From: Pohlia nutans
Lineage: Eukaryota > Streptophyta > Bryopsida > Bryales > Mniaceae
Assembly (NCBI GenBank): GCA_022496805.1
Contig: CM040085.1
Coordinates: 14,289,811-14,353,810 of the forward strand
Reading direction: 5' to 3'
Length of the DNA stretch: 64,000 nucleotides
Below the pieces are notes generated by a model. That model saw only the letters and a list, made by a program, of their open reading frames with translations, did not search any database and had not been told where the DNA came from. Each line of letters opens with the position of its first letter. Within the stretch, counting starts at the first letter, position 1. Of this stretch, positions 229-62,132 are shown piece by piece. The position numbers and the translations under genes are program-made.

Positions 229-2708
229 TTTCGCAGGTCAAAGTTGCGGTCCATGAGCTTTGCAAGGGTGTGGAAGTCTTGTACAAGCAAAGCATCTCGA
301 CCCATCACAGCAAGATTGGCAACTTCATTCATGCAGCTTCTCACCATCTTATCACCATCCAACCACCTTTTCCTCACTGTACTATGCACCTGCATTAATT
401 GTGAAGTCCCCAGGCAGAAAGATATATCAAAAGCAAGCACTCCACAACATTGATGCTCAGAGAGATACTTTAAGACAAGAATGTGTTGACAAGCTAAATG
501 CCACCGTTGGATGCAGCATGTTTAATTTCTTGATGGAACCAGAAAAATATCTCTTCAGTAAATTAGGTCTGCAGCTCTAAGTACTTGACAAGCCAAAGAA
601 AGATATTTAAGCAGGGAATATTATAGGTAGAAGCACGAGCCTTGCCAGAGTCGCTGGGATTCTTCGCGTAGATCAGGTAGAGTGGTGGAATCAATTTCGG
701 ATCCATGGGTGTGTATATGCCGTTCCCAGTCTTCTCTAGGGTATCTCTATCAAAATCCTGTGTTAAGCATTACGTTAGAAAAGGGCAAAACCCAATACTA
801 TGTCAACCGGTGTTACTAAAAAAGAGATATAACTGCAAGCTCCGTCCAATGCAAGCAAAGAAAGCTCTTACAACATCCCATTCCAAAGGACCCCACGAGA
901 TTGACAAAGTTCCCAACGTTAAGTTTAGATTCATTTAGTCCTCGTGTGGAGTTATGTGAAGTTCATGTTAGTAAAACGCAAATAGTCTGAACTTAAAAGA
1001 TCGAAGTCAACATCAACCCTTAAAGGACCAAGAAGCACAAATTGGGAGCTTCATGTTTTTATAAGCACTTTTGAATAGGTCCTATGTGGAGTTTTTTTCA
1101 ATATCGATCTAGTATCCTATTGGATTGAGATTAACTTGCCATTGATGACTTTGTCAATGTGATTGGGGATCTTTTGAGATGCCATGATATCGTTCCTCAA
1201 TCACTCTTCAAAAGTACATTGAATATTCATGGTACGTACACATATAGAGAAGCGGAACTGCAAGAGGACGAACCATGTACACAAGACCTCCATAGACTTG
1301 AGCCACCCGGTCTTGCAAACCTGCAGTTATGCCGAGTTCCTCTTCAGCGCTCAAGATAACTCGGGGTCGGTCTTCGACCTTCATACGATCTCCGACGTCG
1401 TAGTATTCCAGCAAACATGACAGTGTTGCACAGACAATCGCACTCGATCCTGAGAGACCAGCCTACAGAACAGAAACGTTAATTACCTGACACGCCAATC
1501 ATGCCCATTAGATTGGCAAGTTAATGTTCATCTAATAAGACATTAGATCAATATTAACATAATGTTTTGATTTAATAATTGCAAGTGACACTACCATCAC
1601 ACTAACCTTCAGTTAACCCCTAAAGGACCAAAAAAACCTCATATATTATTATTTTTAGCAGTTTTGAGTAGGTCCAATATGGACAACCTTTTGTTTAAAT
1701 TTATTTGTTTTCTGACTAATGCATGCAATGCTCTTCACTAACTCTCGTAAAATAAAATTCGATCCCATCTGAATTATATTTTTCACAATATGATCAATTG
1801 AAATTTGGCATTTTAAAACCATGAATCCTTGGTCCATTAGGAGTTAACACCATTTGCATTTCATTGACATTAACTTAACATGAATCTAACATGAATATGA
1901 GGACTTGGTGAATCTAACTTCAATACAATCAATAGTACCACGGGATCTAGTTTGTGATAGCAGATGAATGGTTTGCGCATACCACTCACCTGTCTGGGCA
2001 CATTCGTATCATAAGTCAACGTGAAATTGCGATCATGTAAAGGAATAGCATGAGCTGAACAATAGGCATGGAACACCTTGCACGTCGCCACCAGCAAACG
2101 CACACCTCCATAGTACCCTTCGCCTTCTACTCGCTCAACCTACATGCCCACCACAACCATCACTCAGCAAAAAGAAACACACCTGATTGCTGAAAACAGA
2201 AAAAAAATAAAAATGAAAATAGGTTCTTTCTTTATTTCCAACTGATCGTAAGAGTGACTTGTTCCTAAAGGCATTACCAGTCATTTCTATCTCTGTAAAT
2301 GAAAATGAGGTGCCATTCATGAATAGAAACACTTCGATACAGAAATTTGAAAACAGTCTCTATTCAAGGATAACGCCTCATTTTCCGATACAGACATGGC
2401 TGGTAATTTTCACACAAGCAGATGATTTGCAGCAGGGGGTCCAATTTTCCTACACTACAGAAAATACAGTGACAATTTCGTGATTGTTGTTACATGAACT
2501 CAAGAAATGGTACCAGATGTTGCAAGGAGGCGAAGTGCGCAGGGTCGTGCACAGGGTGAGGGCGAAACACGAGCGTCTCAGAGGGCTCGAGAGTGACCGA
2601 GGCGCCGAAGTTGCGGATGGCAATGGCGATTGTGTTGCCGTAATAGGCGTCGCTGGGGTTGCCTAGCAAGCCTACTCGCGCATACGATTCACACTTGATA
2701 CTCTTCAT
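229..2708 (-). CDS. GLCAK: Glucuronokinase (GHMP kinase family), C-terminus cut off by window edge
   Basis: Phosphorylates D-glucuronate to glucuronate 1-phosphate in the cytosolic myo-inositol oxygenation route to UDP-glucuronate and cell-wall sugars. Five exons on the minus strand, in coding order: 2708-2514, 2139-1990, 1462-1274, 757-641, 389-229, giving 270 complete codons; plant enzymes have about 360, so the end lies beyond base 1. Seen: [11 protein letters not shown] near residue 10, the GHMP ATP-binding motif GLSGSSA at 117-123, [12 protein letters not shown] near 164-175, and RKRWLDGD near 223-230. All junctions keep frame and match the plant family pattern. The start is the ATG at 2708, just before the conserved N-terminal block; no upstream in-frame ATG was found in that exon. 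Intron 4 appears to begin GC instead of GT. Introns 1 to 3 carry transposon fragments, including a 235-bp TTAA element in intron 2. The symbol is by family similarity. Confidence 0.93.
1014..1130 (+). mobile_element. Left end of a family C TTAA element (fragment), in glucuronokinase intron 3
   Basis: Begins CAACCCTTAAAGGACC and continues with the family C interior (a motif near AATAGGTCCTATGTGGA), also seen at 25922. No right end is found, so this is a truncated copy. Confidence 0.55.
1613..1847 (+). mobile_element. Family C TTAA element, 235 bp, in glucuronokinase intron 2
   Basis: Left end TTAACCCCTAAAGGACC, right end GGTCCATTAGGAGTTAA, TTAA at both edges. Related copies lie at 25922 (interrupted), 35333, 40661, and fragments at 1014 and 19060. 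Too short to code. It is away from the splice sites and should not disturb splicing. Confidence 0.85.
2395..2478 (+). repeat. Copy of part of element L within glucuronokinase intron 1
   Basis: A run of about 33 bases starting GGGGGTCCAATTTTCC is identical to the interior of the TTAA element at 2877-3121. No terminal repeats are seen. Either a decayed copy of L, or L picked up intron sequence. Confidence 0.6.
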
Positions 2709-2819
2709 CTTCTCCTTCCAATCCACCAAGAACTGAGCACCACACCAATTCCGCAAGAGAATTGTCACAGACGGGAAGGAAGCTATATAATTTTTTTATA
2801 AATTAAAAGGAAAAACAAA

Positions 2820-3440
2820 AACAAAACCGATTCTCTCCAAAAATCTACAATCTCTACTAGCACAAGCGCCAATTCCTTAACCCCCTAAGCGTCCAAAACG
2901 CCCAATATGGCCATCTGCATCACTGAACTTTGGTATTCCTCATTTTATCTCGGTTTTCTGATTGCAATACATCATTTTAAAGCTCTTGTTCTATACCACA
3001 AGATCAACATTGTCGATCGTGTCAAACGGAAGTCATTTTCACACTAACAAATGATGATTTGTACCAGGGGGTCCAATTTTCCTACACTACAGAAAATACA
3101 CAGTGGACGCTTAGGGGTTAAACCCTAAACCTCAGGAAAATCTTGTCCAATTGATGCTCCCTTGGTTTATTCGCTAGATCATCGGTGTGCCTAATTGCAT
3201 TTACGAAACCCTAGCTCCGATTGATTCAAGACATATTCTACCACATTGGCTTCCATTCATGAAATCGGCTTCCTAGGCTTACCGGGAAAACACAGAAAGA
3301 GAAAGAGGTGATCACATTGTTTTTCTCCAATACTCCCTCTCTCCTCAACAATCTCTGCTTGCGCAAATGCCAATACAACCCTAAATTCTTGTCCAATGGA
3401 TTGATGCTCCCTTGATTAGATCATGATTGCATTTCCAAAA
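2820..3440. repeat. Local duplication of the glucuronokinase promoter region
   Basis: The stretch 2828-2880 plus 3122-3205 (either side of element L) matches 3320-3435: both hold a CTCTCC...CAATCTCT pyrimidine stretch, a GC(A/C)AA(A/G)(T/C)GCCAAT-like motif, ACCCTAAA, then TTGTCCAAT...GATGCTCCCTTG and AGATCAT. The remainder to 3958 is AT-rich spacer with a purine-rich stretch near 3600; I see no gene there. Confidence 0.6.
2877..3121. mobile_element. Element L, 245-bp TTAA element just upstream of glucuronokinase
   Basis: Left end TTAACCCCCTAAGCGTCC, right end GGACGCTTAGGGGTTAA. It lies about 170 bp upstream of the glucuronokinase ATG, inside one copy of a duplicated stretch. The other copy (3320-3440) lacks it and so shows the empty site. 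Confidence 0.85.
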
Positions 3441-3958
3441 TAAGCGCCACCAAGAAATTGCAAGAGCAGATTAGATTGCGATGGAAACTAAGCAAGTGCG
3501 ATCGGAGAATTGTGCAGAGAATGCAAAGAAACCAAATGCTCTGATTCCTCTTCCAAAACGAGAATAAGTAAAGGCTGTGAGCTGTGAAGAGAAAGGGACT
3601 TGGATGCAGAAGAGGACGAAGAAGAAGAAAGCTGTCAATCCTTCACGGGAACAACGTGCATGAACAAAAAATAATTGGCTTGCACCAAGCCTTTAAGGAA
3701 AAATTTGAAGAAAAATGGATGAAGACGCCAGATTTTTCCAATTTTTGAAAACATATTGGATGAAATTTCCCATTTTTTAATGTGAATGAAAAGATAGTCC
3801 TATCCAAAAAAAACCTTAAACACACATTCAAAGGAATAAACACCATTGTTATACATCATGCAGGATCAATTATACTACATAAAAGAAAAATAGAAAATAA
3901 CCAATCACTACCAATAGAATAAGCAGAATAAACAAGGAAGAAAAAGGGGGAGTAGTGG

Positions 3959-4535
3959 TTAACCCCTAAACGTCCTCACCTATGTCCAGTTTAGGCAGTT
4001 TTGCAAAGATGCATTATAAAATGCAATTAATATGAATATTTAGAACTTGATGTATGAATAAAAGTTATACATTTTTAATTTTAGATTCTATCTATACAGT
4101 TAGATCTATGACTACTATCACTAATCTTTTTTTATAAATTTTGAAACATAAAATAAAAAATTACTTTGTAATTCAATTACGAATAAGATATTGACAATAT
4201 GTGGATGAAATTTGTTGTGATGGGTTATAATGTAGTACTTTAGGTGTAGTGATTTTTGGAGATTTTTTGGATGCTTGATTTTAATAGTTTTTTTTTTCAT
4301 GAACACTTTTAGACCAAAATCTTCAAGATTTTCGGTGAAACACTACAACACAAAATGAGGCATAATTTTTTCAAAAATTATTTCCTTTCCGATCGGATCA
4401 CACATACATGAAGTTAACTTCCCATAAAAAATTCAGTAAAAAAATCACACCACAAAAAGTGCATGACGGATGAGAAAATACGGATGAAATCTGTACATCA
4501 GGCCAAAAAGGCCTGCTTGGGCAGTTAGGGGTTAA
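3959..4535 (+). mobile_element. Family A TTAA element, copy 1, 577 bp
   Basis: Ends TTAACCCCTAAACGTCC and GGGCAGTTAGGGGTTAA. The interior (TTTTGCAAAGATGCATTATA near the left; a GATCGGATCACACAT motif near the right) recurs at 23099, 27126, 58638 and, inverted, at 34532, 40080 and 59994. No open frame of note. Confidence 0.9.
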
Positions 4536-5150
4536 GAACACTATTTATTTATTTTCGTCTTTTTTTTATTAGCTCAACATAGACAATTGGCTCAGGAAGG
4601 TGGGACGGGCCTGGTTGGTTGTTATAACTTTCCTACCTATGATAACTCACTAGCAGTACCAAGTCATGAATATCACATTACTGCTCAAACGGGCACAACA
4701 GAAACCGAACCCGGACCATTTGATTGGAATACAACGTTCTTTACCAACCAACCCAGGAACCATGACTTAATGATCACCAACAAAACAAATTCTAATACTA
4801 TACTTTAACTAGATTTAACACTCATTTAGGGTTGCTTTTGTTACTAGCATTTGTTACTAGTCACTAAAGTGTCTATTCTCAAAAGGAAAGAACAATCTTG
4901 CACCAATGGCCCTTTGTCCATTGAGCACTGGCTCGTTGTTATAACGAATACCGGTAGACACTCTATTCACACCGGCTTTTAAAGAGGACCGGAGTTTCTA
5001 TCTATCTTCTATCCAAAATATAGATGAATGTGAAAATATTTGGCTACATGATTTAATTTATATCACCACTTTAGCACTTCTCCAAAAACCCAAAAAAAAA
5101 ACCTTAATACTACTATCCTATAGAATGAGAAGAAGTTTGGGGGCGTTTGT
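4536..5150. other. Spacer with a dispersed ~120-bp repeat
   Basis: No gene recognised. Bases ~4880-4995 resemble 60735-60850: both hold a TCTTG(C/T)ACCA(A/T)TGG core, then CCTTTGTCC, GGCACT or GACACT with TTATTCAC, and GAAGTT or GGAGTTTC. A short open stretch at 4587-4808 matches nothing I know. Confidence 0.5.
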
Positions 5151-5962
5151 ATGGTAAGGTCCACTAACTCCTCTTGATGAACTAACTACATTTTGGTGCA
5201 CATTTGTGCACTTTGAGCATTTTGTTTAAAAAGCTAACTTTCAAATTAATTTGAAAATTATGTAGCAATGATTCAATGAAAAATGAGTGAACCAACTTCT
5301 AAATTTATCTACATGTTATCCAAAAAATAAAATTTTAGAATGTCAAAATGATTTTATGTTGAAGATTTTGAGTATCAAAAGTCCCATTTTAATATCAGTT
5401 TTACCAATTTATGATCAAACTTTAAATGTAAATATAGCTCACGTTTGATTCTATATTGAAATATTTAAAACTTAGCCAACTTGCAAAATCTCATTCTCAA
5501 GTACATTAAAAAAAGGAATCCATCAAAAAAGTTTTTTAAAATATAGAAACAATTAATCCCTCCCAAAAATAATACATTTTAAAATTTGAAACTTTAATCA
5601 ATTCCAAAAAGATTGAAAAAATTGGAAGATATTTTTCTTCACATATTTGAACACAGGAAAAATTCATAGCTCAAAAGTCCATCCACAACCTTTTGTTCTC
5701 TTTCTCTTTTAGAATTTAGAGTGCATATTATGCATTGTGACAATGCACTAGTTTACCATTTGTTTCATACTCCATTAAAATATAATGCTAAATTTTTACT
5801 TTTCTATCAAATTTTTTTTCTCTTAACGGTACAGTTGATCCTACCACTTTAGATTTCACAAAAATATTTTTCTTTCTTTGAAATGGATTTTTCAAATTCT
5901 CAAAATCCTCAAAAGGGTGCATAGAGACAAGAATTCTAGTGGACCGTACCATACAAACACTT
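5151..5962. mobile_element. Inverted-repeat element W, ~810 bp
   Basis: Left end GTTTGTATGGTAAGGTCCAC, right end the inverse, GTGGACCGTACCATACAAAC. About 22 bp of terminal inverted repeat with one mismatch. The interior is AT-rich and non-coding. The target duplication could not be resolved, so its superfamily is open. Confidence 0.65.
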
Positions 5963-6326
5963 GAGGGTGAGGCCTTAGTGTAAAACCATTTGATTTGATT
6001 TGTCAAATTTGAACAATCTTATTGATTAAAATTTGTGAAATATGGGTTGGAACAATAATTGGGCCCTAATGTATAGTAACCTTATTGAATGCTCAACTAT
6101 CTACTAGTAGGATTATCAAACCGTGTAGACCTTCTTGCAAAATATATATATATATATAACTAATAATATATAATTATTTTTACCAAAAATATTAAAAAAA
6201 TAAAATCTGACGTGGCACCATTTGGGCCACGTCAGTATGGTTTTTTTTAATAGTTATTTTGTTATTAAAATTTTGATTTTTTAATATTTTATTATTTTAT
6301 TATTTTTACATGGCAGTTTCATTGTG

Positions 6327-8139
6327 TTAACCCTTTAACACTTTGGGTACTATAGCTGGGTTCACTTGTTTTCACTGGGTTTTTCCACTATGATTGATAC
6401 TGCGAGAAATAGAATGGATTAAATTAGAAAGTAACTGTACAATTGTATTCTCAACTGGGGTGCAGACATCTTGCCAAAATTAGAGAATCATCCGATGGTG
6501 GAATTGGAAGATCATAGTATGTCTTTGAACCGTATAATGCACACTCAAAAATTAGATTTTGGAGGGTGTGTGACTTCAAAGTTAAATAGAATTTGGGTAA
6601 AATTTTCTAAAATGAAAGTACAAATGTTCAGCAATGACTTATGTCAACATCTCAGAGACGTGACTATCGGAATTTTAGAAAACCACGTGAGATAAAAAAT
6701 AGGGTCAATTTAATTTGTTTAGGGTAAAATCTATAATTTCGTTAAATCTACCATAGCATTGGAAATATGTCCCCTACATGATTATATGTAAAATAGGGAG
6801 GTGGATAATCCCTCCATTTTAGTAATCAGTAGAAAAAAATAGGGTCATAGACATAGGATCCCTCTAAAAGTGTGTAGTAGGATTAGTATAATAATTATGG
6901 GTTTGACGACTTGGATGAAGAAGTGTGTAGTTTCTGTCCAAATTTGAATCAATCGCGTTAGTATGGAGGGAAATGTCGTGGTTTTTTTGGGGGGAAGGAA
7001 TGTGCCGGCGCTCCTCTACGGCCGTTGGGTTTTGCAAGGGCGCTGAACATGTGTGACCTCTCTGAATGCTTAGAACCTGACAGCCTCCACCGTCACCCTC
7101 AACCGCTTCCTGCAATCTTTTTTGGTTTTGTCACAACCTCAATCTTTGATTGTCAAGCTCACGCTTTTTCTGAGCATTTTCTAGGGTTTCTTTCATGCAG
7201 ATTGATGCTACAGAGTGGCGACTTCCTTTGCAATGTTTTCCACGTTTAGGGTTTAGGGTTTAGCTTTCATGGTTCGTCTCTTCTTTGTTGGTTTTGTGAT
7301 TAGGATTTTGCTCAAGTTTTGGTAGAGCAATTTCATGGTAAAGCTTGCTTAGAGTTTGGGTAAACATATAGACGGTTAGGTGAAGCATGGAGTTTGGTTT
7401 CGCAATGCTATAGTATTCTGTCCACTATTTGGTACTTGTATGATTTATAAAAAAAATATTGTGCCAAAAATTAGCCTCTCTAAACAATTACAAATAAATA
7501 TAGGGTGCTAAAAAATACGTCAAAGTAGCTTTTTATCTACAAATAGGGAGGGAAAAAATATTGAGAGGTGCATAAATATCCCCCTATTAAATACCCCATT
7601 ATCGCACGTGGTTACGAAACGTAAGGGGGTGTGATCGCCCCGAGGTCAACACCTCTCCGTTGCAATCTTTCATGTTAAGAACGGACTCGCACATAATTAT
7701 TGTGAATTTTATAAGTGAGAGTGACTTATCCATGTATGGTTTAGGACAAAAATTTATACGTTAAAATAAGATAGGAGTTGGTACATGGATCAAGATCTGA
7801 ATACATACACTTATGGAACATGAACAAGAGAACACGATCCAAAAAAATAAAATAAGACAACAAACTTCCAAACACAAGAAATACCGCATAGTACATGTGT
7901 TGTATTTGTTAGTATTTACTGTATTTTCAAGTATTTACAGTATTTTTGCACCTTGTTCATAGGTATTTTGATAGTTGCACAACTCCAAATTGAAATTTTC
8001 TTTTTCTAAAAGATGTATATTATAACGCTCATCATTTGAACTTCACAATTCAAAATCCGATTCTTCACAAATTTTCCATTATTCGCATTTTTGACACATC
8101 AAAGACCACAATGTGGTTTCTTGAGCACTAAAGGGTTAA
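6327..8139 (+). mobile_element. Family F TTAA element, copy 1, carrying a 991-bp insert
   Basis: Ends TTAACCCTTTAACACTTTGG and GCACTAAAGGGTTAA. Homologous to 53433-54947 in inverted orientation (shared: AACCGTATAATGCACA, CTTCAAAGTTAAATAG, AACGGACTCGCACATAATTA). Copy 2 lacks the insert at 6654-7644. Confidence 0.75.
6654..7644. mobile_element. Mutator-like (Pack-MULE-like) insert within F1
   Basis: Absent from the second F copy. It is flanked by an 11-bp imperfect direct repeat, GTCAACATCTC (6643-6653) and GTCAACACCTC (7645-7655), the length expected for Mutator-like elements. The ends carry long degenerate inverted repeats sharing CACGTG(A/C)GATAA and GGGAGG. The middle (~6960-7440) is richer in GC and looks gene-derived: CTAGGGTTT, a TTTAGGG run at 7244-7262 (telobox-like) and possible exon/intron edges. 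The captured gene is not recognised. Confidence 0.55.
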
Positions 8140-9246: not shown

Positions 9247-9977
9247 TTAATTCCTAAAGGTTGGGCCTATGACCATGGAATCATGTTTGATCTGTCACAC
9301 TCAATTTTGTTACTAAAAATAATACCAGAATTCAAATTTATATTTTTAGTAAATGAAGTCACATGTCTACTACAAATCATGAATTTTTCATAAATATTGG
9401 TGAAAATTTGAAATTACTATGGTTTTATGAAGTGATTGTAACGAAAATCTATATCAATTACAAAATGTACTAGAAAATTCCGATTATTTTATCTAAGGTG
9501 TAAATTACAATAAAGAAAAGTTTAGTTAATGAAAATCATCCGTGTATTTAAATTTAGAAATTTTGCTACACCTTGGTGATACCTACTGAACTTGTAACTA
9601 CAATAAAACACTCAATTTTTAAATTTTTCCAAAAACTCAAAGTGGAGTAGAAACTAGACTTGGCAAGCTTCATTTTGTTAGTTAAGCTCAAATGCAATGG
9701 AACTCATTTTCATGGCCTAAATTTAGTTTAAGTAGAACAAGCAAAAAAATTCAAAATACACTACACGGTGAACCGTTTTTACGACTCTTTTTGTAGTTGG
9801 GACCCCATGTAAAATCTAAAAATAGCTTGAATGATTTGAATTTAACTTGAAGGGGTGGCACTACCAAGCAAAGCCCTTCACATAAAGAATTGGATGGAAA
9901 TCATCCATGCAGTTGGAATTGAACAGTCAACTTTGTTCATAAGCCATTTTTTGGTCTCGGCGGCGTTTAGGGGTTAA
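9247..9977 (+). mobile_element. Family G TTAA element, copy 1, 731 bp
   Basis: Left end TTAATTCCTAAAGGTTGGGC, right end GGCGTTTAGGGGTTAA. Close relative at 54240-54939 throughout its length (CCTATGACCATGGAATCATG near the left). The final TTAA at 9974-9977 also begins B1. Confidence 0.88.
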
Positions 9978-10523
9978 CCCCTAAGCGCTCAAACGACCAT
10001 TTTCTGGTCGCTATCCGAATTTAACAGGCTGCCCGGAACAAAAAAATAAAAAATTGAAAAAATAAAAAATATTTTAAAATACTACATCAAGTCTACTTTC
10101 CAACCCAATTTGAATTATGGCAATCCGAGTTAAACTCCACCCGGAAGAATTTTTCAAAGTAGATCATCTCAACATTGTCTTAGTGTTATAAAATTTGCTA
10201 TTTGGGGAAAGTAATGATGATTCCTCCATCATTTCTTTTGCTTTTTTGAAGTTTACAATAGATAGCCCAACTTTGACCAATCATACTAAACTTTGAACTC
10301 TAAAATTGAAAATTATAAGTTATACATAATTTCAAAGGTTAATGCTTTTAAATTCATTAAAAAATGATCTAAAGTTATTTTTGGAAGTTTGACCGTACGG
10401 ATAATTTGTAGAGATGATACTCTACATTTTGTCTATTGAACCAAACTTCATCAAACATATGGAAGGCACATATTATAACACATCTATGTTTTGTCCAATA
10501 CCCCTCGGGCTTTTAGGGGTTAA
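9974..10523 (+). mobile_element. Family B TTAA element, copy 1, 550 bp
   Basis: Ends TTAACCCCTAAGCGCTC and GGGCTTTTAGGGGTTAA. Near the left is an internal palindrome around CGACCATTTTCTGGTCG. Other copies: 24158 (inverted), 33775 (truncated), 61583. It inserted into the TTAA that ends G1. Confidence 0.9.
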
Positions 10524-13243: not shown

Positions 13244-18450
<5,207 letters not shown>

Positions 18451-19059
18451 CGCGCTTGATCACTCCCAACGTCCACTAAAAAAATAAAAAAAATAAAAAC
18501 CCGATCGATCCTCACCAAACTGGATCCTCACTCTGTTTCTACAAATTTCGATTTCTCAGCGGTTCCTGCACCAAATTTCGTGAGTCCAAATCGACGATCG
18601 CCTTCCACACCTCGCCTTCAAAGCATGCGCCATATCAAATCGCCTCCCGCATTGCAATGCATCGATCTCCTCTACAATTTTTGGTTGGCAAGCTTGGAGC
18701 GCGAAAGAATGAGAAGGAAGACCGCAGGCAGCCAAAGCTCATGACAACAAGTGCGTCTCGGTATAGTGAAGCCGACGCTCCTTTCATCCACCTGATGAAT
18801 GTCGTCCTGTGGGATGAATGTCGTTCGTTGGGACGCTGCCCGAAGCCAGATGGCGACCGGAGGCGGGGCGGACTAGCGGCCACATGGATTGTCTCGTTAC
18901 CTAATTCGGACGGGCAGGGGCGAAATTTTTTTTTCATAAGAACATGGCGGACACGGCTAAACTTCAGTTACGATCTTATCTACAGTCGGTTGGAACACTC
19001 TGTTGTCTACAAATAACTTTCAAACTGTAATATTCTTACCTCCAAAGTCAAATAATCTA
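18451..19059. promoter_or_regulatory. Hexokinase upstream region
   Basis: Contains the presumed hexokinase promoter and 5' UTR, including AAAAATAAAA runs and a short repeat GATGAATGTCGT at ~18795-18825. A 119-codon plus-strand frame (18657-19016) has no recognisable content. No TATA box could be fixed with confidence. Confidence 0.45.
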
Positions 19060-19241
19060 CTAAAGGGTAGTTCCTTTATGTGGACTTTCATTTGTTTAGA
19101 TTTATTTCTTTTTTATCCGCTAGTTCTTCATTGATTCTAGTGATAAAAAATGTTGGTCCCGTTTGAATTCTATCAATCACTATATGATTGATTGAATTTG
19201 TCATTTTAAAACCATGGATTGTAGGTTTTTTTAGGGGTTAA
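19060..19241 (+). mobile_element. Family C TTAA element, left-truncated
   Basis: Right end TTTTTTAGGGGTTAA with the family C interior before it (TCATTTTAAAACCATGGATT). The left TTAACCCC end is missing. Confidence 0.6.
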
Positions 19242-19765: not shown

Positions 19766-20212
19766 TTAACCCCTAAAGGACGATAAGGCCCCTACGCAGC
19801 TTTTGGAACTAGAAAATGAGGAAATTTGAGTTCTTGGGCTTTGAATTGTAGGATGAGCAACAATCAGACCCTAGCTCATTTTGAGAGCTGAATCCGTTGA
19901 TACCTCCTGATTGGAAATTCATAAAATATGCGATTTTTAGTGATTATTTTCAGTTACAAGGAGGCTATCTAAGCGTCACTTCAGACTTCATATCTTCCTT
20001 CTCACACCTTCAAATTACGTGAAATTTTTTACACACGTTAAAATAATGATCTCTATGTACAGTAAAAATTTCAAATTTTTTGGAGCACTTTTGAACAATC
20101 CGAGTTCAGCATATGTACAAAATACCCCGAACAAGTTCCATCGATCTTTTCAACGGTGGAATTTTCTCAAAATTTATTGATCCTTTTTTCATACAAAATG
20201 ATGATTTTATAC
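19766..20212 (+). mobile_element. TTAA-element left part inserted in U1, right end lost
   Basis: Begins TTAACCCCTAAAGGACG exactly where U2 reads AACTTAACATGAC. No TTTAGGGGTTAA follows; about 130 bp of U flank seen in U2 is missing too, so a deletion removed the right end plus flank. Confidence 0.65.
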
Positions 20213-24000: not shown

Positions 24001-24929
24001 TTAACCCTTAAATGTCAAGAGGGCCTGGGCGGGACACACCAAAAGGCATCTAAATTTTTGGAGAGAAAAGAAGAAAAAAAATATAAAATTTGAATTAAAT
24101 TAAAAACGGCTATGCTGGTCAGCCACTGCTACGGCACTCTTTCACTGCGGCACTTTTTTAACCCCTAAAACCCCGAGGGGTATTGGACAAAACATAGATG
24201 TGTTATAATATGTGCCTTCCATATGTTTGATGAAGTTTGGTTCAATAGACGAAATGTAGAGCATCATCTCTACAAATTATCTGTACGGTCAAACTTCCAA
24301 AAATAACTTTAAATCATTTGTTAATGAATTTAAAAGCATTAACCTTTGTAAATTTGTATAAATTATAATTTTCAATTTTAATGTTTAAAATTTAGTACAA
24401 TTGGTTAAAGTTGGGTTATGTATTGTAAACTTCAAAAAGCAAAAGAAATGATGGAGGGAACATCATTACTTTCCCCAAATAGCAAATTTTATAACACTAA
24501 GACAATGTTGAGGTGATCGACTTTGAAAAATTCTCCCGGGTGGAGTTTAACTCGGATTGCCATAATTCAAATTGCGTTGGAAAGTAGACTTGATCTAGTA
24601 TTTTAAAATATTTTTTAATTTTTCAAAAAGTTATTTTTTTGTTCCGGGCAGCCCGTGAGATTCGGGCAGCGACTAGAAAATGGTCGTTTGAGCATTTAGG
24701 GGTTAAAACGGCCTAAGGTGACCAACCTCAACTCTTGTTCAAATCGATTACTTTGATTGCTTGTGGATGATTCCACAATCTCCCAAATGAGGAGCAAGTC
24801 GAGAATCTAACTCGCTTTTTTAGTAGCTTTCCAACGCACCAATCCTCGCTTGTTTTGGTTGAGGAAAACTTTTTTTAGATTGTTCTTTCTTAAAAAGCCA
24901 TGGGGCTTGCTTTGATGTTCAAGGGTTAA
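24001..24929 (+). mobile_element. Family D TTAA element, copy 3, interrupted by B2
   Basis: Ends TTAACCCTTAAATGTCAAG and TTTGATGTTCAAGGGTTAA. Without the insert it is about 384 bp, the same as the intact copy at 39698-40083 (shared GAGGGCCTGGGCGGG, CCACAATCTCCCAAATGAGG). Confidence 0.87.
24158..24706 (-). mobile_element. Family B TTAA element, copy 2, nested in D3
   Basis: 549 bp, inverted relative to B1, with TTAA at each end. The intact D copy reads CACTTTTCAAGAAACGACC at this point, so B2 entered a TTAA-like site there. Confidence 0.9.
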
Positions 24930-25921: not shown

Positions 25922-26665
25922 TTAACCTCTAAAGGACCGAGAAGTCCAAATTGGGCCTCATGTTGTTTTTAGTATTTTTGAATAGGTCCTATGTGGACTT
26001 CTTTTTGTCCAAATTTATTTGTCGTTTGACCAACACATGCAATGATTTTTACTGAATCCGATGATATAAAATTTGGTCTCATCTTAACTCTTAAACGTCA
26101 AAAAATCCCCAATGGCTTGTTTTGAGAGAATAATGAAGAAAAAAGTAGATTTTCTCAACCAAAATTGAAATGGATTGGTGCTTTGGAAAGGTGATGAAAA
26201 AGAAATGCTAAATTTAGAAAATATTTGGGAAATTGTACATTCCAAGGAAATTGGAAAGAAAATTCGTGAGGAGGGAGGGGAGGGAGTCGGGCAGCTTGAG
26301 ACCTTGATGTATACTAGAACTGGCAATGCATGCCAACGCTAATCAATAATGTTTTTTTTTTTTCAATTTTTTTAAAATCCAGAATTGAAGAGCTCACTAC
26401 GAAGCCGAAATCTTATTGAATTTTTTAATTTTTTTTTGGAGTGACACTGTTCACTCCATTCACTATTCATAGAGGATTTGAAGAATTATCATTGGTTATT
26501 CACGTTACTCAAAGGGTGACTATTGGGGGCAGTGAATAAAAATTATTCCTTTGGGATGCTCGTCCAAGACCCTCTTGACGTTTAAGGGTAAAATGTACTT
26601 TTCACAACACCATCAATTGAATTCGTTCATTTAAAACCAAGAATCCTTGGTTCTTTAGGGATTAA
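25922..26665 (+). mobile_element. Family C TTAA element, interrupted by D1
   Basis: Ends TTAACCTCTAAAGGACC and TTCTTTAGGGATTAA. Removing D1 leaves about 245 bp, close to the 235 bp of the intact copy. Confidence 0.85.
26094..26592 (-). mobile_element. Family D TTAA element, copy 1, nested in a C element
   Basis: Ends TTAACTCTTAAACGTCAA and TTGACGTTTAAGGGTAA (one T of the TTAA lost). Inverted relative to 39698. Its middle differs from the other D copies. Confidence 0.8.
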
Positions 26666-27959: not shown

Positions 27960-28777
27960 TTAATCCCTAACCGTCCCGACATCCATATTTTGGACGTTTT
28001 TGGGGGTACATTCACATTCGAAGAGCTGTAACTTTTGCACAAAGTGCCCGATTTTAATAAAAATTTAGAAAAACAAACCGCATGATGTATGGAATGAGTG
28101 GTAAAAATTTCAGATCAATCCAAGATGTATTGAATTTTTGGTGATCATTTGAAAGTAGGGGTCTTTTTTTTGGACAGTTTTTGTGCATTTTGATAGCTGC
28201 AACTTTGGGGGCTTATATCTCCTTCATCCCATGTTCGTTTTCAATAAACATTACTGGGTTGGATTCCCCTTGAAGTCTAGTTATCATGGTAAAATATTCA
28301 TGTCAATCCATGTTGTTCAGAATGTTTGGGAGTGATTTTAGTGCACGGGTCTAATTTGGACACTTTTTGCTTTTTGGGTCAAATCGGTCACTTTTCGGGC
28401 TACTTTTTGACATTGCAAGACCATTTTAGGGCACATTAAATTTTTTTCATGAGTATTCTTGGGAATCAATGTGTTTATATGATGATTTTGAACTACTTTA
28501 TAGCTCAAAGGTTTTTCATTTGAGTAATGTTGAAAACAAATTTCACCTCCAAGTGTGTTGCTAGGAAAATTTCAACATCCATTTTTAACACTGAAACACT
28601 ATGATCTTGCAATCTATATGGCCAAATGACCCCAAATTTGATCTACATGATGTACGACATGTATATCACAAGATTGTATAGTTGAGATTCCTATACCTCA
28701 CTTACATTTGAATTTATAACACATCAAAAGCAATGATGGTTTTAAGCCCTAAAAAGCTAGGGATGCTTAGGGGTTAA
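27960..28777 (+). mobile_element. Family M TTAA element, copy 1, 818 bp
   Basis: Ends TTAATCCCTAACCGTCCCG and GATGCTTAGGGGTTAA. The interior matches 41841-42537 inverted (e.g. GGGCTACTTTTTGACATTGC). Confidence 0.87.
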
Positions 28778-29387
28778 AATCCCAAATTAACCAAAAAAGA
28801 TAAATTGGTTTAATGAATTTGAAATAACATGCACTACGAGATGGTATGATTTCCATTATTTGATTCTATTTATTTTGGAAAATCATGTTTAAGGTCTCAT
28901 TTTTGAACTAAGTATGAAACTTGACATAAACCAATTATATTATTTAAAAAAAATCACAATATCTTATTTTGAAGATCCATACCGTACAAATGATAGTCAA
29001 CTAGCACAAGAACCAAGAGAAATTTGGATGGATGAAAAATCGTCCATGGATGTAGTCAAGAGAATAATATGAATCTGTTTATCATCCACTATGTGGACGC
29101 CGGCGTGTCAAAGCATTAAAATTCCTTCCCCGATTTAGAAAGAAAGGAGTATTTTTGAATTTTAAAGTCACTTGAAAACTCATACAATAGTCATGGGTTT
29201 CAAAGATCTTTTCACTTAATTTTTTTTTAATAAATTTAATTATGAGAAGCAAGAAATTGAAAAAAATACCATTCTACAATATCTTTGTATCTCTATAAAA
29301 GAAAAATATCTCAATAGTAAAACTTCAACATTTTCCAACTTAACAACCTTATTTTATCAATTATAAGTACTTCCACCTTAACCCCTA
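28778..29387. other. AT-rich spacer
   Basis: No gene, repeat family or RNA recognised; long A/T runs only. Confidence 0.5.
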
Positions 29388-29638
29388 AAGGAGGATTCCC
29401 TTGTTCATATGGTGCACATACAGGGAAGAACATTTAGATATAGGTGGCGTTTACTGTAAAATAACATGTCCTATAGAGTCAAAAAAAAAATTCAGCTTTA
29501 TAATAACTACAAGGCATGTTGCTGTAAAATTCTCATAATTTTTCCTTGTGCGGAAGACGGTAAAAGAATTTCCTGTACAAATGTGGTAGTAAGAAACAAT
29601 AGAACACATTGAGGTTGTTGCATGCATTTAGGAGTTAA
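29388..29638. mobile_element. Element O, 251-bp TTAA element
   Basis: Ends TTAACCCCTAAAGGAGGA and CATTTAGGAGTTAA. The interior has no match elsewhere in the window. Confidence 0.65.
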
Positions 29639-30288: not shown

Positions 30289-30291
30289 TAA

Positions 30292-33770: not shown

Positions 33771-33774
33771 TGAG

Positions 33775-40654: not shown

Positions 40655-40660
40655 TGCCGT

Positions 40661-41840: not shown

Positions 41841-42537
41841 TTAACCCCTAAGTGTTCTTGGCTTTTTTGGGCTTAAAAATATCATTGCTTTTGATGTGTT
41901 ATAGATCTAAATGTAAATGAGGTGTAGAAATTTCAATTGTACAATCTCGTAGTATACATGTTGTAAATGATGTGGATCAAATTATTAGTGGTGAAATTCG
42001 TTTTCAAAACTACTAATGAAACAAAATTAACTATAAAGCGGTTAATGAAAAAATTTGATGCACCCTGAAATTACCTTGCAATGTCAAAAAGTAGCCCGAA
42101 AAGTGACCCATTTGACCCAAAATGCAGAAAGTGTCAAAAATAGACCTGTGCACTAAAATGACTCCAAAACATTCATAACAATATGGATTGACATGAAAAG
42201 TTTACCATGATAACTAGACTTCAAGGGGAATCTAACCCGACAATTTTTTATTTATTGAAAACGAACATTGAATGAAGGAGATACAAGCCCCAAAGTTACA
42301 ACCATCAAAATGCACAAAAACTGTCCAAAAAAACAAACCCCTGCTTTCAAACGATTCCCAAAACTTCAATACATCTCAGATTGATCTGAAATTTTTACCA
42401 CTCAACTAGACATCATGAGGGGAGATTTTCCAAAATTTCATTAAAATCAAACACTGTATGCAAAAGTTACAGCTCTTTGAAGTGAAAGCAACTCAAAAAA
42501 CGTCCAAAATATGGACGCCGGGACAGTTAGGGATGAA
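41841..42537 (-). mobile_element. Family M TTAA element, copy 2, 697 bp
   Basis: Ends TTAACCCCTAAGTGTTC and GGACAGTTAGGGATGAA. Inverted relative to 27960. The following 600 bp up to the CHY1-like stop codon hold its presumed 3' UTR and nothing else recognised. Confidence 0.83.
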
Positions 42538-53265: not shown

Positions 53266-53432
53266 ATAAGGAACTACCTCAACACTTTTGTAAAAAAATA
53301 ACATTCAATAGCCTCTGTGACTGTTGCCTTTGTCCAACAAAATGATGTGGAATATCCCACATCATTTCATCCACCCAAAGAAACGATGTAGGATATTCAC
53401 ATCACATCAATAGCTATGGGGGCAGGTGACAT

Positions 53433-54947
53433 TAACCCTTTAGTGCCCAGGAGACTACATTGTGGTCACTAATGTGTCGAAAACGCAAATAACGGAAAAT
53501 CCACGAACGATAGGATTTTGAATTGTGATGTTCAGAGTTGGAAACTTATAATATACATCTTCTAAAAAAATAAAATTTCAATTTGAAGTTGTGCAACTAT
53601 CAAAATATTGATGAACAAAACGTGAAAATACTGTAAATACTTGAAAATACGGTAAATACTTACAAATACATCACATATACTATGCGATATTTCTTGTGTT
53701 TGGAAATTTGTTATCTTGTTTTATTTTTTTGGAATGTGTTATCTTATTCATATTCCATTAGTGTATGTATTCCGATCTTGATCAATGTACCAACTCCTTT
53801 CATATTTTAACGTATAATGTTTTCTCCTAAACCGTATATGGATAAGTTACTATCACTTCTAAAATTCACAATAATTATGTGCGAGTCCGTTCTTGACATG
53901 AAAAATTTCAACGAAGAGGTGTCAACATAGGTCATTGCTGAACCTCTTTACTTTTATTTTTGAAAATTTAACCCAAATTCTATTTAACTTTGAAGTCACA
54001 CACCCCCCAAAATCTCATTTTCGACTGTGCATTATACGGTTCAAAAACATACTATAATATGCCAATCCAACGGTCCGATCTTACCAAGGTTTAACCGACA
54101 CTGGTTTGATTAAACTATGCTTACATTAATACAGTTAAATACTATTAATAGTATCCATAAATTGAACAGAGAGAGTTTTAAGAAAAAATACACCAAAAAA
54201 CTGTGGTTTCTCCAGAACCACCTTGGGCACTAACCCCTAAAGGTTGGGCCTATGACCATGGAATCATGTTTTATCTATCACACTCAATTTTGCTACTAAA
54301 AATAATACAAGAATTCAAATTTATATTTTTAGTAGATGAAGTCACATGTCTACTACAAATCATGAATTTTTCATAAATTTTGGTGAAAATTTGTAATTAC
54401 TGTGGTTTTATGATTGTAAAGAAAATCTATATCAATTACAAAATGTACTAGAAAATTCCGATTTTTTTACCTACGGTGTAAATTACAATGAAGAAAAGTT
54501 TAGTTGATGGAAATCATCCGTGTATCTAAATTAAGAAAATTTGCTACACCTTGGTGATACTTACCGAACTTGTAACTACAATAAAACACTCAATTTTCAA
54601 AATTTTCCAAACATTCAAAGTGGAGTATAAACTAAACTTGGCAAGCTTCATTTTGTTAGTTAAGCTCAAATGCAATGGAACTCATTTTCATGGCCTAAAT
54701 TTGGTTTAAGTAGAACAAGCAAAAAAAATCAAAATACACTACACTGTGAACCGTTTTTACGACTCTTTTTGTAGTTGGGACCCATGTAAAATCTAAAAAT
54801 AGCTTGAATGATTTGAATTTAATTTGAAGGGGTGGCATCACCAAGCAAAGCCTTTCACATAAAGAATTGGATGGAAATCATCCACGAGTCGACTTCATTC
54901 ATAAGCCATTTTTTGGTCTCGGTGGCGTTTAGGGGCTAAAGGGTTAA
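53433..54947 (-). mobile_element. Family F TTAA element, copy 2, interrupted by G2
   Basis: Left TTAACCCTTTAGTGCCCAGG; the right end GCACTAAAGGGTTAA is split by G2 after GCACTAA. Without G2 about 820 bp. Lacks the Mutator-like insert of copy 1. Confidence 0.85.
54240..54939 (+). mobile_element. Family G TTAA-type element, copy 2, with CTAA duplication
   Basis: About 700 bp; tips CCCCTAAAGGTTGGGC and GGCGTTTAGGGG, flanked by CTAA at 54240-54243 and 54936-54939. The host site is the terminus of F2. Confidence 0.88.
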
Positions 54948-55118
54948 GCAAGAGCAAGTAACCATGGTGAATAGTAATTGAATGCACTCACTCAGTCACA
55001 ATTCAATAGTGTCTTGTAAATGTTTATTTGATTCAATAGCCCATTCAATTACAAATCAGTGGTCACTCCATATATAAAGGTGGATGAAACTAACAGGCAG
55101 CCTTCTTGAAGCTACTGA

Positions 55119-55581
55119 GGCCCTCTTTACACTACAAGCGAGAAGCCGTGGAGAAAACCTCACAAGGGCCATGGCTCATCCTTGAGAAGCCAACCTTTGA
55201 ACTTGACGGCCTTTGGATATAATGTAAAGTGAGAAGGGGCCACAAAATAAAGTGCTAATTTTTAAAAATAAAGTTCTTACATATTTCTTAAAATATATAA
55301 AATGATTGGTTGTGAGAATTTTGGCCAAACTGCCCCCCGGATTTTGCGTTAGACCCACCTCTTGAGGTGGGCTTGACGCAAAATCCGGGGGCCTTGAAAA
55401 ATGTGCACTTTTGTTGCCACGAAGGACAAAAGTGTTGTCCATGTCATTTTCTCCTCCTTCCGTCCCTTGGACTGAAAATTTCGAGTGTAAAGTGACATTC
55501 TTTGGTCTTCTCGGTTTTTAGGCCTCCCATTGGCTGAAATTTCTTTCTTCATGGCTTCTCGCCTCTAGTGTAAAGAGGCCC
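55119..55581 (-). mobile_element. Element I copy 2, 463 bp, PIF/Harbinger-like MITE
   Basis: Ends GGCCCTCTTTACACTA and TAGTGTAAAGAGGCC, flanked by TGA on both sides, so a 3-bp target duplication. Inverted relative to 29829. Confidence 0.8.
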
Positions 55582-55584
55582 TGA

Positions 55585-56576
55585 ATGTTATGAACTATCC
55601 AAATTCTTTCAGTGTACAATTATTGGTAAGTTATTGGTAAGTTACCAATAACTACTTGCACTAGCCACTCACTAAACGCCATACATACACTCTCTACAGT
55701 GCAAGTGAGACTTTTAAGTTTGTTTTTCTTACAACGTGAGACTTTTGTGTCAGTTTATTTTTAAGTGCTACCTACAGTGGAGAAAGGTGGCGGAATTTTC
55801 ACAACTGCTAAAGAAAGTTGCACAATATGGTAGCATGCTCATCACTCTCATCTGTCCGAACGGCGGACATGGTGCCGGCCTGCCGGCTACATTGCTGCAT
55901 AGCAATTTGGCAATAGAATATGCGCAGGTTGATTGCGGGCACGGATCCCGAAGCGCTATTGAGCCGACTCAGCCGAGGACACACTCACTCCAGGCAGGCT
56001 TGGCGACACGATTTAATTAAAAAAAATGGCCGAAAAGAGGAAAGAAGCTCAACTAAAATTAATAGAATACATGTTCTTTTGTCCTGCCATTTGTAAGTAG
56101 GTAGCTTGTGTCGGTTTTTCTGCAATAAAATTCCATTTGTTTGTTTTTTATTATTCACTGTTTTGCTCGCAATAAAATTCGATTAGTTTTTTTTTAAAAT
56201 ATTTTGTTCTCTGCTTTTGCTCGCAGAACGCCATGGCCGGAAGTGAAGGGGCCACGCTGCCGAAACGATGGCCGTGGCCGTGCCGACGCTGTCTCGCTGG
56301 CTCGCCTACTGCCGACGCGCATCCCCAAATGTACGTCTAGAAAAACGTGCCAGCAGCAAGCCACCAAGCTCCCTCACACGCACATTGCTGCATTTCCCGA
56401 ATATTCATTCATTGCGAAGATAACACCTGCTCATGTTCTGGATTCGTGCAGGCTTCTACTGTGAGATCGGGTCGATTGCTTTGTTTGATCGCGTCGATTA
56501 TATAAGCCATTTGGCTATCATCTTTGTCATTTGTAGGTTCAATATGCTTAGTGTTTGTTTTATCTTCTCTTAGGAT
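55585..56576. other. Upstream region of the HMA gene, with a GC-rich patch
   Basis: GC rises at ~55850-56000 and 56215-56345. Two overlapping ATG frames at 56231 and ~56265 could be a first exon ending before GTACGT at ~56329, but joining them to downstream exons is not supported. May hold the promoter and 5' UTR. Confidence 0.4.
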
Positions 56577-56976
56577 GGAGCATCTATAAGTCGAGTAAAT
56601 CAAGAAATTATTCTTTTTATTGTTTGGAGCTTAGGAAATCTTTGTGTGTTAATAGTTATTAGTTGCTCTCTGTCTTAAGAGGTCGTAACATTTGTTACGT
56701 TCATTGGACTTGGCCGCATTCATTCCGCTGTGTACATACTACTCGATCAGGCGTTCTTTGATCGCTCCTTGGATCATCCAGAAGTCGAGTAAATCAAGAA
56801 TTGCTTCTTTTTATTGTTTGGAGCTTAGGAGATCTTTGTGTGTTAATATTCATGTGGTTCTTTAGTTAATCTCTGTCTTAAGAGGACGTAGCATTTGTTA
56901 CGTTCATTGGACTTGGCCGCATTCATTCCGCCGTGTACGTACTACCCGATCAAGCGTTCGTTGATCGCTCCGTGTG
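56577..56976 (+). repeat. 194-bp tandem duplication before the HMA gene
   Basis: Two units in which GTCGAGTAAATCAAGAA occurs at ~56590 and ~56784; both also hold GCATTTGTTACGTTCATTGG or a close variant, and CTTGGCCGCATTCATTCCGC. Confidence 0.88.
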
Positions 56977-56982
56977 GCAGCG

Positions 56983-57898
56983 ATGCAATATGATTACGAA
57001 GGTCGGAAAACGATTCCGGTGAGTGAGAGCCTTGTGAGACTGATTATCGGGATCTTTAGACATAGATGTTATTGAGTGTATGAATTCATACGTAGTTTGC
57101 AAATTTTCCTTGTTATGTAGCGGGTTATGTAGCAAGAATTTATCCGCGTGCTTGGTTAATATGGAAGTGTCCGTGGAGGTAGGTTGAAGAGGAGACTAGG
57201 CTTGAGAGCCAGATGCTTGTGTGCTGAATGTCGTTGACACGATTTGTGCAGGTTTATGCCAATGGGCTTAAGGATGTTCCGGACAGGCTGAGGAAGCACG
57301 ACTGGATGGTGGCGGTCAAATTTGACCAACTGCCGGTACGCCGGTTGAGGAAACTCATCAATCCTCAAGCAATAGCGTTTTAGAGACATTGTAGCGCGTG
57401 TCTTGTTTGTTAAACAAAAAATGTCGTGGACAATATGCGCAGAAATATCAGTTGAAGGTGCATATGTGTTGCGAGAAATGCATGGAGAAGGTGGAGGAAG
57501 AGATTTGGGAAGTGCGGGGCGTTTTTGACGTGAGGGCCATGAGACCGAAGAAGGTGGTTGTGACGGCCATGCACGAGGATCCCGACCGTGAACCAGAATT
57601 CCGGGATGAGGTTTTGAGGAAGGCGAAGAAAATCGATTGCAGAGCCAAGTTCGTAGAACTTGATGCAACCGAAAGACCTAAACCAACGAAACAGGACCCT
57701 AAACCACCGAAACCACCACCACCACCACCACCAGTGGTTGTGACAAATGTTGTGTATCCTCCAGGTGGGAGTATCAGCCTATATCAGCCTTCCCCTCCTT
57801 ATGATCGCCGTTCTGAGCCTCCCAACCAAGAAGACTTCGTGCATTACTTCCACCTCTTACTCCTTGCTCTGTTTTTAATTATGCTTATTCTCAGGTGA
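56983..57898 (+). CDS. HMA-domain metal-binding protein with Pro-rich linker and C-terminal membrane segment
   Basis: Small protein with a heavy-metal-associated domain, probably binding Cu/Zn-type ions through CxxC. Model: exons 56983-57018, 57252-57335, 57443-57898, GT-AG, all phase 0, 191 aa. Residues 1-40 (exons 1 and 2) match nothing I recognise. The HMA core starts at residue 41 with KYQLKVHMCCEKC; the ligand pair is Cys50 and Cys53. The domain ends near residue 115; then comes a Pro run (~118-137), a polar stretch, and a hydrophobic segment at ~174-190 ending in Arg. No CaaX prenylation box is present, unlike typical isoprenylated HIPP proteins, so this looks tail-anchored. The third exon is secure. 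Exons 1 and 2 rest on splice sites and frame; an alternative first exon may lie near 56231-56330, where GC is higher. A 194-bp direct repeat lies directly upstream. Confidence 0.75.
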
Positions 57899-58637: not shown

Positions 58638-59212
58638 TTAATTCCTAAATGTCATCACCCCTCTCCAAATTCGGCAGTTTTGTAAAGATGCATCATAAAA
58701 TGCAACTAAAAGGGATATTTTGTACTTGATGTTTGAATAAAAAGTTGTACATTATAAATTTTAGATTCCATCCATATGGTGAGATCTATGATTGCTATCA
58801 CTAATATTTTTGTATGAAATTTGAAACCTGAAATTCAAAACTATTTTGTAATTCAATTACGAATAAGATATTGACAATTTGTGAATGAAATTTGTTGTGA
58901 TGGGTTGAAATGTAATCTTCTATTTGAAGTGATTTTGGGAGATTTTTTGGTTACTTAATTTTATGAGTCTATTTTTCAAGAGCACATTTAGACTAAAATC
59001 TTAGAATTTTTTGGTGAATCACTGCAACATGAAATGAGGCATAAAAGTTTCACAAGTCATCTCCTTTCTAATCGGATCACACATGAATGAAGCTATCTTG
59101 CCATCAAATTTTGTTGTATTTCTTTCCTTACAAAAAATGCATGATGAATGAGAAAATGTGGTTGAAAACTATACATCGTCCAAAAATGGACAATTGGCCC
59201 TTTAGGGGTTAA
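58638..59212 (+). mobile_element. Family A TTAA element, copy 5, 575 bp
   Basis: Ends TTAATTCCTAAATGTCATC and GGCCCTTTAGGGGTTAA; interior as in A1. The spacer 59213-59993 after it holds nothing recognised. Confidence 0.87.
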
Positions 59213-59993: not shown

Positions 59994-60578
59994 TTAACCC
60001 TTAACTGCCCGTGCATTCATTTTTTGGACATTGTACAAATTTCATTCACGTTTTTTCATCCATCATGCAATTTTGTAGTGTGGATTTTTTTACTATAGAT
60101 TTTATAAGAAGATAGCTTCATGCATGTGTAAACTGATTAGAGAGGGGATGATTTTTGAAAAAATTATACCTCATTTCATGTTCCAGTGATTCACCAAAAA
60201 AAATCTAAGATCTTAGTTCAAAATAGTTCAGAAGTGCTCTTGAAAATTCACCTCATAAACTTAAGCAACCAAAACATCTCCAAAAATCACTACACTTAGA
60301 GTATTACATTTGGACCCCTCACAACAAATTTCATCCACATATTGTCAATATCTTATTCGTAATTAAGTTACTAAAGAATTTTGAATTTTGGATTAAAAAA
60401 TTTATACAAAATATTGATGATCGCAATCATAGATCTAACCGTATGGATAGAATCTAAAATTCATACTATACAACATTTATTCATACATCAAGTTCAAAAG
60501 ATCCCTCTTAGTTACATTTTATAATGCATCTTTGTAATTCTCCAAATCTCGAGAGGACTGTGGGCATTTAGGGGTTAA
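59994..60578 (-). mobile_element. Family A TTAA element, copy 6, 585 bp
   Basis: Ends TTAACCCTTAACTGCCCG and GGGCATTTAGGGGTTAA; inverted relative to A1. Between it and the next element is the second copy of the ~120-bp repeat seen at 4880. Confidence 0.87.
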
Positions 60579-60942: not shown

Positions 60943-61175
60943 TTAACCCTTAAAGGGCTAATGGGGATAGTAGATACGGTGGTGTATATTTGACATTTGT
61001 TGTAAATAGAAAGTTCCAAATTGAGACCCCAATAGCTCATTAAAATCATGTCAACGTGAACTTTAACTTCACTTTTGATCTTAAACCCATAGGAGGTTTG
61101 GAACCATGTCAAATACAATGAAATATTGATGTATAATACTGATTGGAAAGGGCCATTTGGACCTTTAAGGGTTAA
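60943..61175. mobile_element. 233-bp TTAA element
   Basis: Ends TTAACCCTTAAAGGGC and GGACCTTTAAGGGTTAA. The interior has no relative in the window. The spacer to 61582 is unremarkable, with a C-rich stretch near 61520-61550. Confidence 0.75.
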
Positions 61176-61582
61176 GTTAACTGAAAACAAGGCGGACTCT
61201 GTACAAAATCTATGCGGAATCAACAATCTTATATAAATTAATTTCGATATGCCTTACACATGAATAGTCCCATGATCTCTTCATAAATAGAGCCATAGGC
61301 TTGGGAGAACTTGTGGAAACTCTCTTCTAGCATTGGAGAGATCACAAATTCCACTCTCACGGGCGATGCAGGTTCTTACTTTAGATTATCCTTCAACTCA
61401 CTATCGACTAGTTTTGTCGTTTTTTTGAACTGAAAATGAGTTGAAGGTGAGTATGAAGTGAGTTTCCACTTTGAGACTAAAATCTTTACACCCAACAATA
61501 CGCCTATACAAGCACCCCTACCTGCACCCCCTCCCACACTCCCCCCAACAATTCAATACATCGCTTACCTACTCATTATAGG

Positions 61583-62132
61583 TTAACCCCTAAACGCCCA
61601 AACGATCATTTTCTGGTCACTGCCCGAATCTAACGGGCTGCCTGGAATAAAAAAAAGTATTTTTTTGAAAAATAAAAAATGTTTTAAAATACTACATCAA
61701 GTCTACTTTCCAACCCAATTTGAATTATGTCAATCGGAGTTAAACTCCACCCGGGAGATTTTTTCAAAGTGAATCACTTCAACATTGTCTTAGTGTTACA
61801 AAATTTGCTATTTGGAGAAAGTAATGATGTTCCCTCCATCATTTCTTTTGCTTTTTTGAAGTTTACAATAGATAAACCAAATTTAACCAATCATGCTAAA
61901 TATCAAACTCTAAAAGTGAAAATTAGAATTTATACAAATTTTCAAAGGTTAATGCTTTTAAATTCATTAAAAAATATCTAAAGTTATTTTTGGAAGTTTG
62001 ACTATACAGATAATTTGTAGAAATGATGCCCTACATTTTGTCTATTGAACCAAACTTCATCAAACATATGGAAAGTACATATTATAACACATCTATGTTT
62101 TGTCCAATACCCGTCGGGCTTTTAGGGGTTAA
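61583..62132 (+). mobile_element. Family B TTAA element, copy 4, intact, 550 bp
   Basis: Ends TTAACCCCTAAACGCCC and GGGCTTTTAGGGGTTAA; interior collinear with B1. Confidence 0.9.

Follow-up and report, generated by a model that had tools for sequence, protein, structure and literature searches.

Short TTAA elements with a common tip belong to the piggyBac superfamily in what is probably a moss genome

How can about thirty short elements in one piece of DNA have the same tip and share nothing inside? The window that raises this question is the whole stretch of 64,000 nucleotides analysed here, C1:14289811-14353810. A preliminary description of it had claimed about 30 elements at TTAA sites with one tip and unrelated interiors, and had proposed that they are of the piggyBac type, that the host is a land plant and that one transposase, encoded outside the window, moved them all. 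PiggyBac elements are known mainly from animals. We analysed the window together with a genome of 697,796,988 bases in 332 contigs. We conclude with high confidence that the window elements are non-autonomous piggyBac elements of a plant nuclear genome, with full-length DDD-type piggyBac elements elsewhere in that genome.

The tip TTAACCCCTAAA, allowing up to two mismatches, has 59 matches in the window, against a mean of 10.3 and a maximum of 16 in 100 dinucleotide shuffles. Pairs of tips 100-1000 bp apart are convergent in 31 cases, divergent in 13 and direct in 23, and 30 shuffles gave a mean of 0.4 convergent pairs and at most 3. When right tips were rotated against left tips the mean was 12.2 convergent pairs, so the pairing is partly explained by clustering of ends; 31 pairs were reached in 6 of 2000 rotations. 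Self-comparison and interior clustering resolve 29 elements of the TTAA type, which agrees with the earlier count, and their interiors sort into 11 unrelated groups: seven of A, five of E, four of B, three of C, two each of D, G and K, and four single-copy elements (starting at 2877, 19766, 29378 and 60943). The seven A and four B copies were described before; the six C copies claimed then correspond to our three C elements plus others. Both ends are present in 24 elements and five are truncated or decayed; together the 29 span 15,127 bp, or 23.6% of the window, with solo ends at 1013 and 43637 left out of the count. K1 and K2 exceed the size range of 230-850 bp given previously because of nested insertions. 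We found no TTAA element from 10.5 to 19.0 kb of the window. A weight matrix built from 40 trusted ends has the consensus TTAACCCCTAAACGCCCAAA, with information mostly at positions 1-11, 14 and 16, and the window tips start with pyrimidines of the CCC type (CC, CT or TT).

What does insertion do to the target? Among the two-ended elements 19 have TTAA on both sides, one has CTAA on both (TTAG on the other strand) and four have unequal 4-mers. Four comparisons of occupied with unoccupied sites, and one half-site, show that the target-site duplication is 4 bp long and of the TTAA type. In the repeat occupied by K1 TTAA occurs twice, and in its unoccupied copy (25309-25520) it occurs once, at the corresponding position. 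The second D copy, D2 (54230-54939), lies in the K2 tip between two TTAGs (minus strand), where two other matching K tips have one. The B element in C (24158-24706) and the C-like element in E (26084-26592) are compatible with a 4-bp duplication, their unoccupied relatives having diverged at the site: the relative of the former reads CAAG, and the latter has TTAA/TAAA with TAAA or TGAA in the unoccupied E copies. A third E copy, at 35 kb, reads TAATTAAG at the insertion point and is not a clean comparison. The half-site is element 19766, which starts exactly on a TTAA present in the unoccupied copy and has lost its right end. Neighbouring elements can have a TTAA in common, as do D and B (9974-9977) and C and A (40080-40083). 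We also fetched 20 B copies genome-wide, the most similar among 40 scored and including the window's own. Eighteen have TTAA/TTAA, which, with the single TTAA in K1's unoccupied repeat, bears out the duplication expected in the preliminary description; one has ATAA/ATAA (L057, loci fetched from the genome being numbered in this way) and one TTAG/TTAA. Comparing 300 bp of flank among these copies gave 13 matches, three within one copy, because some B copies lie in other repeats. The ATAA/ATAA of L057 and the TTAG/TTAG of D2 point to a 4-bp duplication, not to a 2-bp TA.

Genome-wide, the exact tip TTAACCCCTAAA occurs 41,466 and 41,558 times (83,024 together) against 129 and 156 (285 together) for the reversed control, and TTAACCCCTAAACGYCC occurs 5253 and 5145 times against 0 for its control. 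The window, with 29 elements, has 15 exact tips where the genome average is 7.6 per 64 kb, and extrapolation from the ratio in this one window, twice as dense as average, suggests a total on the order of 10^5 elements. Family B has at least 40 full-length copies that are 96% or more identical, scored from 3832 first-look candidates.

Where, then, is the transposase? None was found in the window when its six frames were searched by hmmsearch using a profile built on 60 piggyBac proteins (best E value 3.7), and this search likewise found no transposase coding in the miniature inverted-repeat transposable elements (MITEs) of the window. All 60 held-out control sequences were recovered. The profile, built from a Trichoplusia ni query and mostly insect where named, is not from plants, and a decayed plant transposase could therefore escape it. 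A genome search with PF13843 gave at least 116 scored matches from 1305 first-look candidates, all listed matches exceeding the cut-off, and no match in 14 control genomes; the transposases are thus outside the window, as had been claimed. Stop-free domains make up 24 of the 30 that we fetched. Clustered at 60% identity these 30 give 10 groups, and at 50% they give 7; the least similar pair is 35% identical. When three motifs are aligned to piggyBat their aspartates, which we take to be the catalytic ones of piggyBac, are kept in 30, 29 and 30 of the 30 domains. For the domain, the ratio of non-synonymous to synonymous change (dN/dS) lies between 0.05 and 0.32 in seven of eight computable pairs. 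In a midpoint-rooted FastTree tree of 95 tips, sampled without balance from two similarity searches, the 30 transposases group with 13 metagenome or Logan proteins and apart from 20 sampled via the T. ni search.

Several transposases lie in elements that can be bounded. One element is present at two sites with different flanks, as L034 60-5094 and, on the other strand, L032 999-6035; the two copies align over 5038 bp at 99.4% identity, and at either side the alignment stops no more than a base away from TTAA. Inside is a transposase open reading frame (ORF) of 1002 amino acids with PF13843 (DDE_Tnp_1_7) at an E value of 1.3e-82, which also matches the solved structures of piggyBat (1.1e-26) and piggyBac (7.8e-26). 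The element bears a TTTAGGGGTTAA end; its ends are TTAACCCTCAAGCGCC and TTAACCCCTAAACGCCGG, and TTAACCCCTAAACGCCGG follows the MITE consensus through position 16. The preliminary description had pointed to long elements as the place to look for such a transposase, and its piggyBac assignment is upheld by the TTAA duplication, the tips and PF13843 transposases inside elements with like ends. Searching with the L034 protein turned up two stop-free copies of full length, another that is 99% identical across residues 1-789, and many others that are diverged or broken. L031 1544-7098 (5555 bp) has the tips CCCCTCAACGCC and CCCCTCAAGGCC and a 3′ end identical at three sites, and L036 2334-7720 (5387 bp) has a 3′ end in common with L061. 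Second copies set the bounds of L034/L032 and the 3′ ends of L031 and L036; the single-copy elements L033 (5076 bp), L038 (4736 bp) and L039 (5968 bp, with an A-type piece inside) have weaker bounds, set by TTAA-CC on both sides. TTAA stands on both sides of all six bounded elements, and the best-bounded are 5.0-5.6 kb long. Pairing of inverted ends around transposases gave 0-8 matches (up to 4 mismatches in 12), chance pairs included, against 0-3 in the reversed control. Window-type MITEs adjoin transposases on other contigs, so both belong to one genome.

Two candidate readings of these loci were rejected. Bounds of 999-7624 for L032 take in a B MITE (7074-7624); without it the element runs from 999 to 6035 or 6036. 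Swapped shells among transposase copies had been considered where L013/L025 matches first broke off near the coding part; longer flanks are collinear again up to the 3′ TTAA.

In L034, L033 and L031 the N-terminal part, about 500-600 residues long, is rich in RG. In L034 the first 505 residues hold 27 RG/GR dipeptides and the other 497 hold 5. The N-terminal parts of L034 and L033 align at 39% identity over 172 residues and 79% over 33, and other copies match L034 residues 1-396 at 57%; this conservation argues that the part is coding. The L034 ORF has visible cysteine pairs at its C-terminal end, where piggyBac proteins have a cysteine-rich domain, and no Pfam zinc domain over the cut-off. 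In the L035 lineage the frame is 565 codons long and lacks the RG-rich part. Short-repeat arrays with offsets of about 40 bp stand on both sides of the L035 transposase (3765-4368 and 7056-7985); they belong to the L008/L010/L015/L020 lineage, with copies about 99% identical, and are possibly subterminal binding-site arrays.

Did one transposase move all these MITEs? MITE ends were set against 14 sampled autonomous ends in 336 comparisons, where the 99.9th percentile of shuffled scores is 7. The right 115 bp of A are 79% identical to the 5′ end of L036, and the left end of A scores 12 against the 3′ end of L035; the C ends score 16 and 13 against both ends of L038, and the left end of B scores 11 against L034 and L033. 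L035 and L036 belong to one transposase clade, L038 and L034 to others. End scores are weak for K (8-9) and element 2877 (8 and 6). The window MITE interiors have no match inside the bounded L031, L032 and L034, and the matches of C inside L033 are all short and A-rich. Because A, C and B are akin to different lineages, several lineages are favoured over one, and several diverged piggyBac lineages seem to be involved. Together with the 10 clusters at 60% identity, this goes against the single transposase of the preliminary description.

We explain the window as follows. A transposase would recognise the short tip (CCCCTAAA and variants) adjoining TTAA, excise the element and reinsert it at another TTAA, which would be duplicated. 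Related lineages would conserve the outermost bases almost unchanged as the interiors of the MITEs turned over, and one tip with many interiors would be the result. We infer that the genome's own piggyBac transposases move the MITEs and that excision is seamless. Several points weigh against this explanation. Both the movement of the MITEs and their excision are deduced from sequence. The terminal 4-mers are unequal in four of the 24 two-ended elements, the bounds of L033, L038 and L039 rest on one copy each, and a search for TTAA-flanked inverted ends found no clear end pair for L035, L037 and L040. For E, D, G and the elements at 19766, 29378 and 60943 no clear partner emerges from the 14 ends (G scores 8 at best), and end scores of 7-9 in other groups may reflect no more than tip positions 9-16, which are common to all lineages. 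Finally, dN/dS is 1.41 in L002/L012, where there are very few changes, and a ninth pair is saturated.

Alternatively, a single transposase lineage may have moved every family, with the other lineages as bystanders. All families do have the outermost tip in common, and in animals piggyBac transposases are able to use related ends; however, the ends of A, C and B match different lineages beyond the common tip, and open, conserved domains occur in several lineages, so we consider this unlikely. Sola3 and Kolobok elements also use TTAA, and the duplication by itself would suit either. We think this very improbable, given that PF13843, the profile searched, finds transposases inside elements with these ends. 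Kolobok termini are moreover of the form 5′-RR..YY-3′ (PMC9587614), whereas those described here start with CC and are pyrimidine-rich; with Sola3 only the TTAA target is in common. It is scarcely credible that the elements are Tc1/mariner (TA) or PIF/Harbinger (TWA) MITEs favouring TTAA by chance. At TTAA targets alone the TA and TTAA duplications do look the same, but the sites of L057 and D2 require a 4-bp duplication, and elements with these ends carry piggyBac transposases.

The host is probably a moss, judging by the protein encoded at 57395-57895. This HMA-domain protein is 77% identical to a Logan contig, 52% to Ceratodon purpureus and 63% to Physcomitrium patens (over about half of the query), in line with the land-plant host proposed earlier. 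Hexokinase exons, one of them confirmed, lie at 13247-18459; for the exon at 16233-16670 the nearest PDB match is rice hexokinase 6, with animal hexokinases not far behind.

Table 1. TTAA-type elements of the window, in window coordinates
Feature	Position	Strand	Details
MITE family E	1613..1847	+	TTAA/TTAA, tip CCCCTAAAGGACC
Other E copies	19078-19241; 25922-26665; 35324-35560; 40660-40896		truncated; holding nested element; decayed; last copy without remark
Single-copy element, 245 bp	2877..3121	+	TTAA/TTAA, tips CCCCCTAAGCGT / CCCCTAAGCGTC
MITE family A	3959..4535	+	interior clustering
Other A copies	23099-23674; 27126-27757; 34532-35029; 40080-40654; 58638-59212; 59994-60578		34532-35029 truncated
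Element K1	6327..8139	+	nested non-TTAA insertion 6654-7648; sits in repeat
MITE family D, copy 1	9247..9977	+	right TTAA common with adjoining B
MITE family B	9974..10523	+	interior clustering
Other B copies	24158-24706; 61583-62132; 33760-34086		24158-24706 on other strand; 33760-34086 truncated
Left-end-only element	19766..20209	+	begins on TTAA; half-site comparison with repeat copy 31647-33766
MITE family C	24001..24929	+	B (24158-24706) nested; unoccupied C copy 39698-40083
C-like element	26084..26592	+	nested in E (25922-26665); unoccupied E copies 1613, 40660
MITE family G	27960..28777	+	other copy 41841-42537
Single-copy element, 261 bp	29378..29638	+	TTAA/TTAA
Element K2	53432..54947	+	D copy 2 (54230-54939) inserted in right tip
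Single-copy element, 233 bp	60943..61175	+	TTAA/TTAA, tips CCCTTAAAGG

The window has other repeats as well. The insertion at 6654-7648, about 995 bp present in K1 relative to K2, has loosely inverted ends and a near-repeat of about 10 bp in its flanks (TCAACAYCTC), and is perhaps a different type of transposon, resembling Mutator-like elements (MULE-like). An internally repetitive insert at 20872-21867 splits a larger repeat (20304-23027, compared with 31975-33766), and similar sequence adjoins a transposase in L018. The repeat pair 29828-30292 and 55115-55582 is 93% identical and has no TTAACCCC tips. Two local tandem duplications, at 56576-56974 and 63468-63992, have units of about 200 bp that are 85-86% alike.

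By target, tip and transposase the elements belong to the piggyBac superfamily, in which we class them as a separate clade of large elements. They resemble piggyBac of T. ni and piggyBat in the 4-bp TTAA duplication, the CCC-type tips, PF13843 and the structure matches, and differ from known piggyBac elements in the plant host, in the RG-rich N-terminal part (L034, L033, L031) and in transposases that stand apart from the sampled animal ones. The rare ATAA target of L057 has also been reported from piggyBac-type elements (PMC8634313). Beetle piggyBac elements mostly have CCCT or CCCTTT tips and measure 2.1-3.5 kb, against 5.0-5.6 kb here (PMC12732532). The piggyBac-derived MITEs of insects in iMITEdb are likewise short and noncoding, with paired tips and TTAA duplication (PMC5199201); the MITEs of the window differ in their plant host and in that several groups, unrelated in their interiors and nearly identical in their tips, occur within 64 kb. 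In plants, 1230 PiggyBac repeats are tabulated for a fern (PMC6890710) and one for feather grass (PMC8319324), and two reviews include PiggyBac among the superfamilies of plants or angiosperms (PMC10794571, PMC10004981). No bryophyte piggyBac system was found in the literature searched, subscription journals and Repbase reports being outside its reach.

What would this mean for the family? We lean modestly towards the view that this bryophyte genome holds a separate piggyBac clade that has diversified into many coexisting lineages, several of them RG-rich-extended and some recently active, each with its own swarm of MITEs, which together take a large share of the genome; the plant system would then have been kept or acquired independently of animals. 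With at least 116 domain copies, near-identical elements and 83,024 exact tips, the genome provides a plant's native piggyBac system, open to testing, and a case for studying how a nucleus accommodates several lineages from the same superfamily together with their MITEs.

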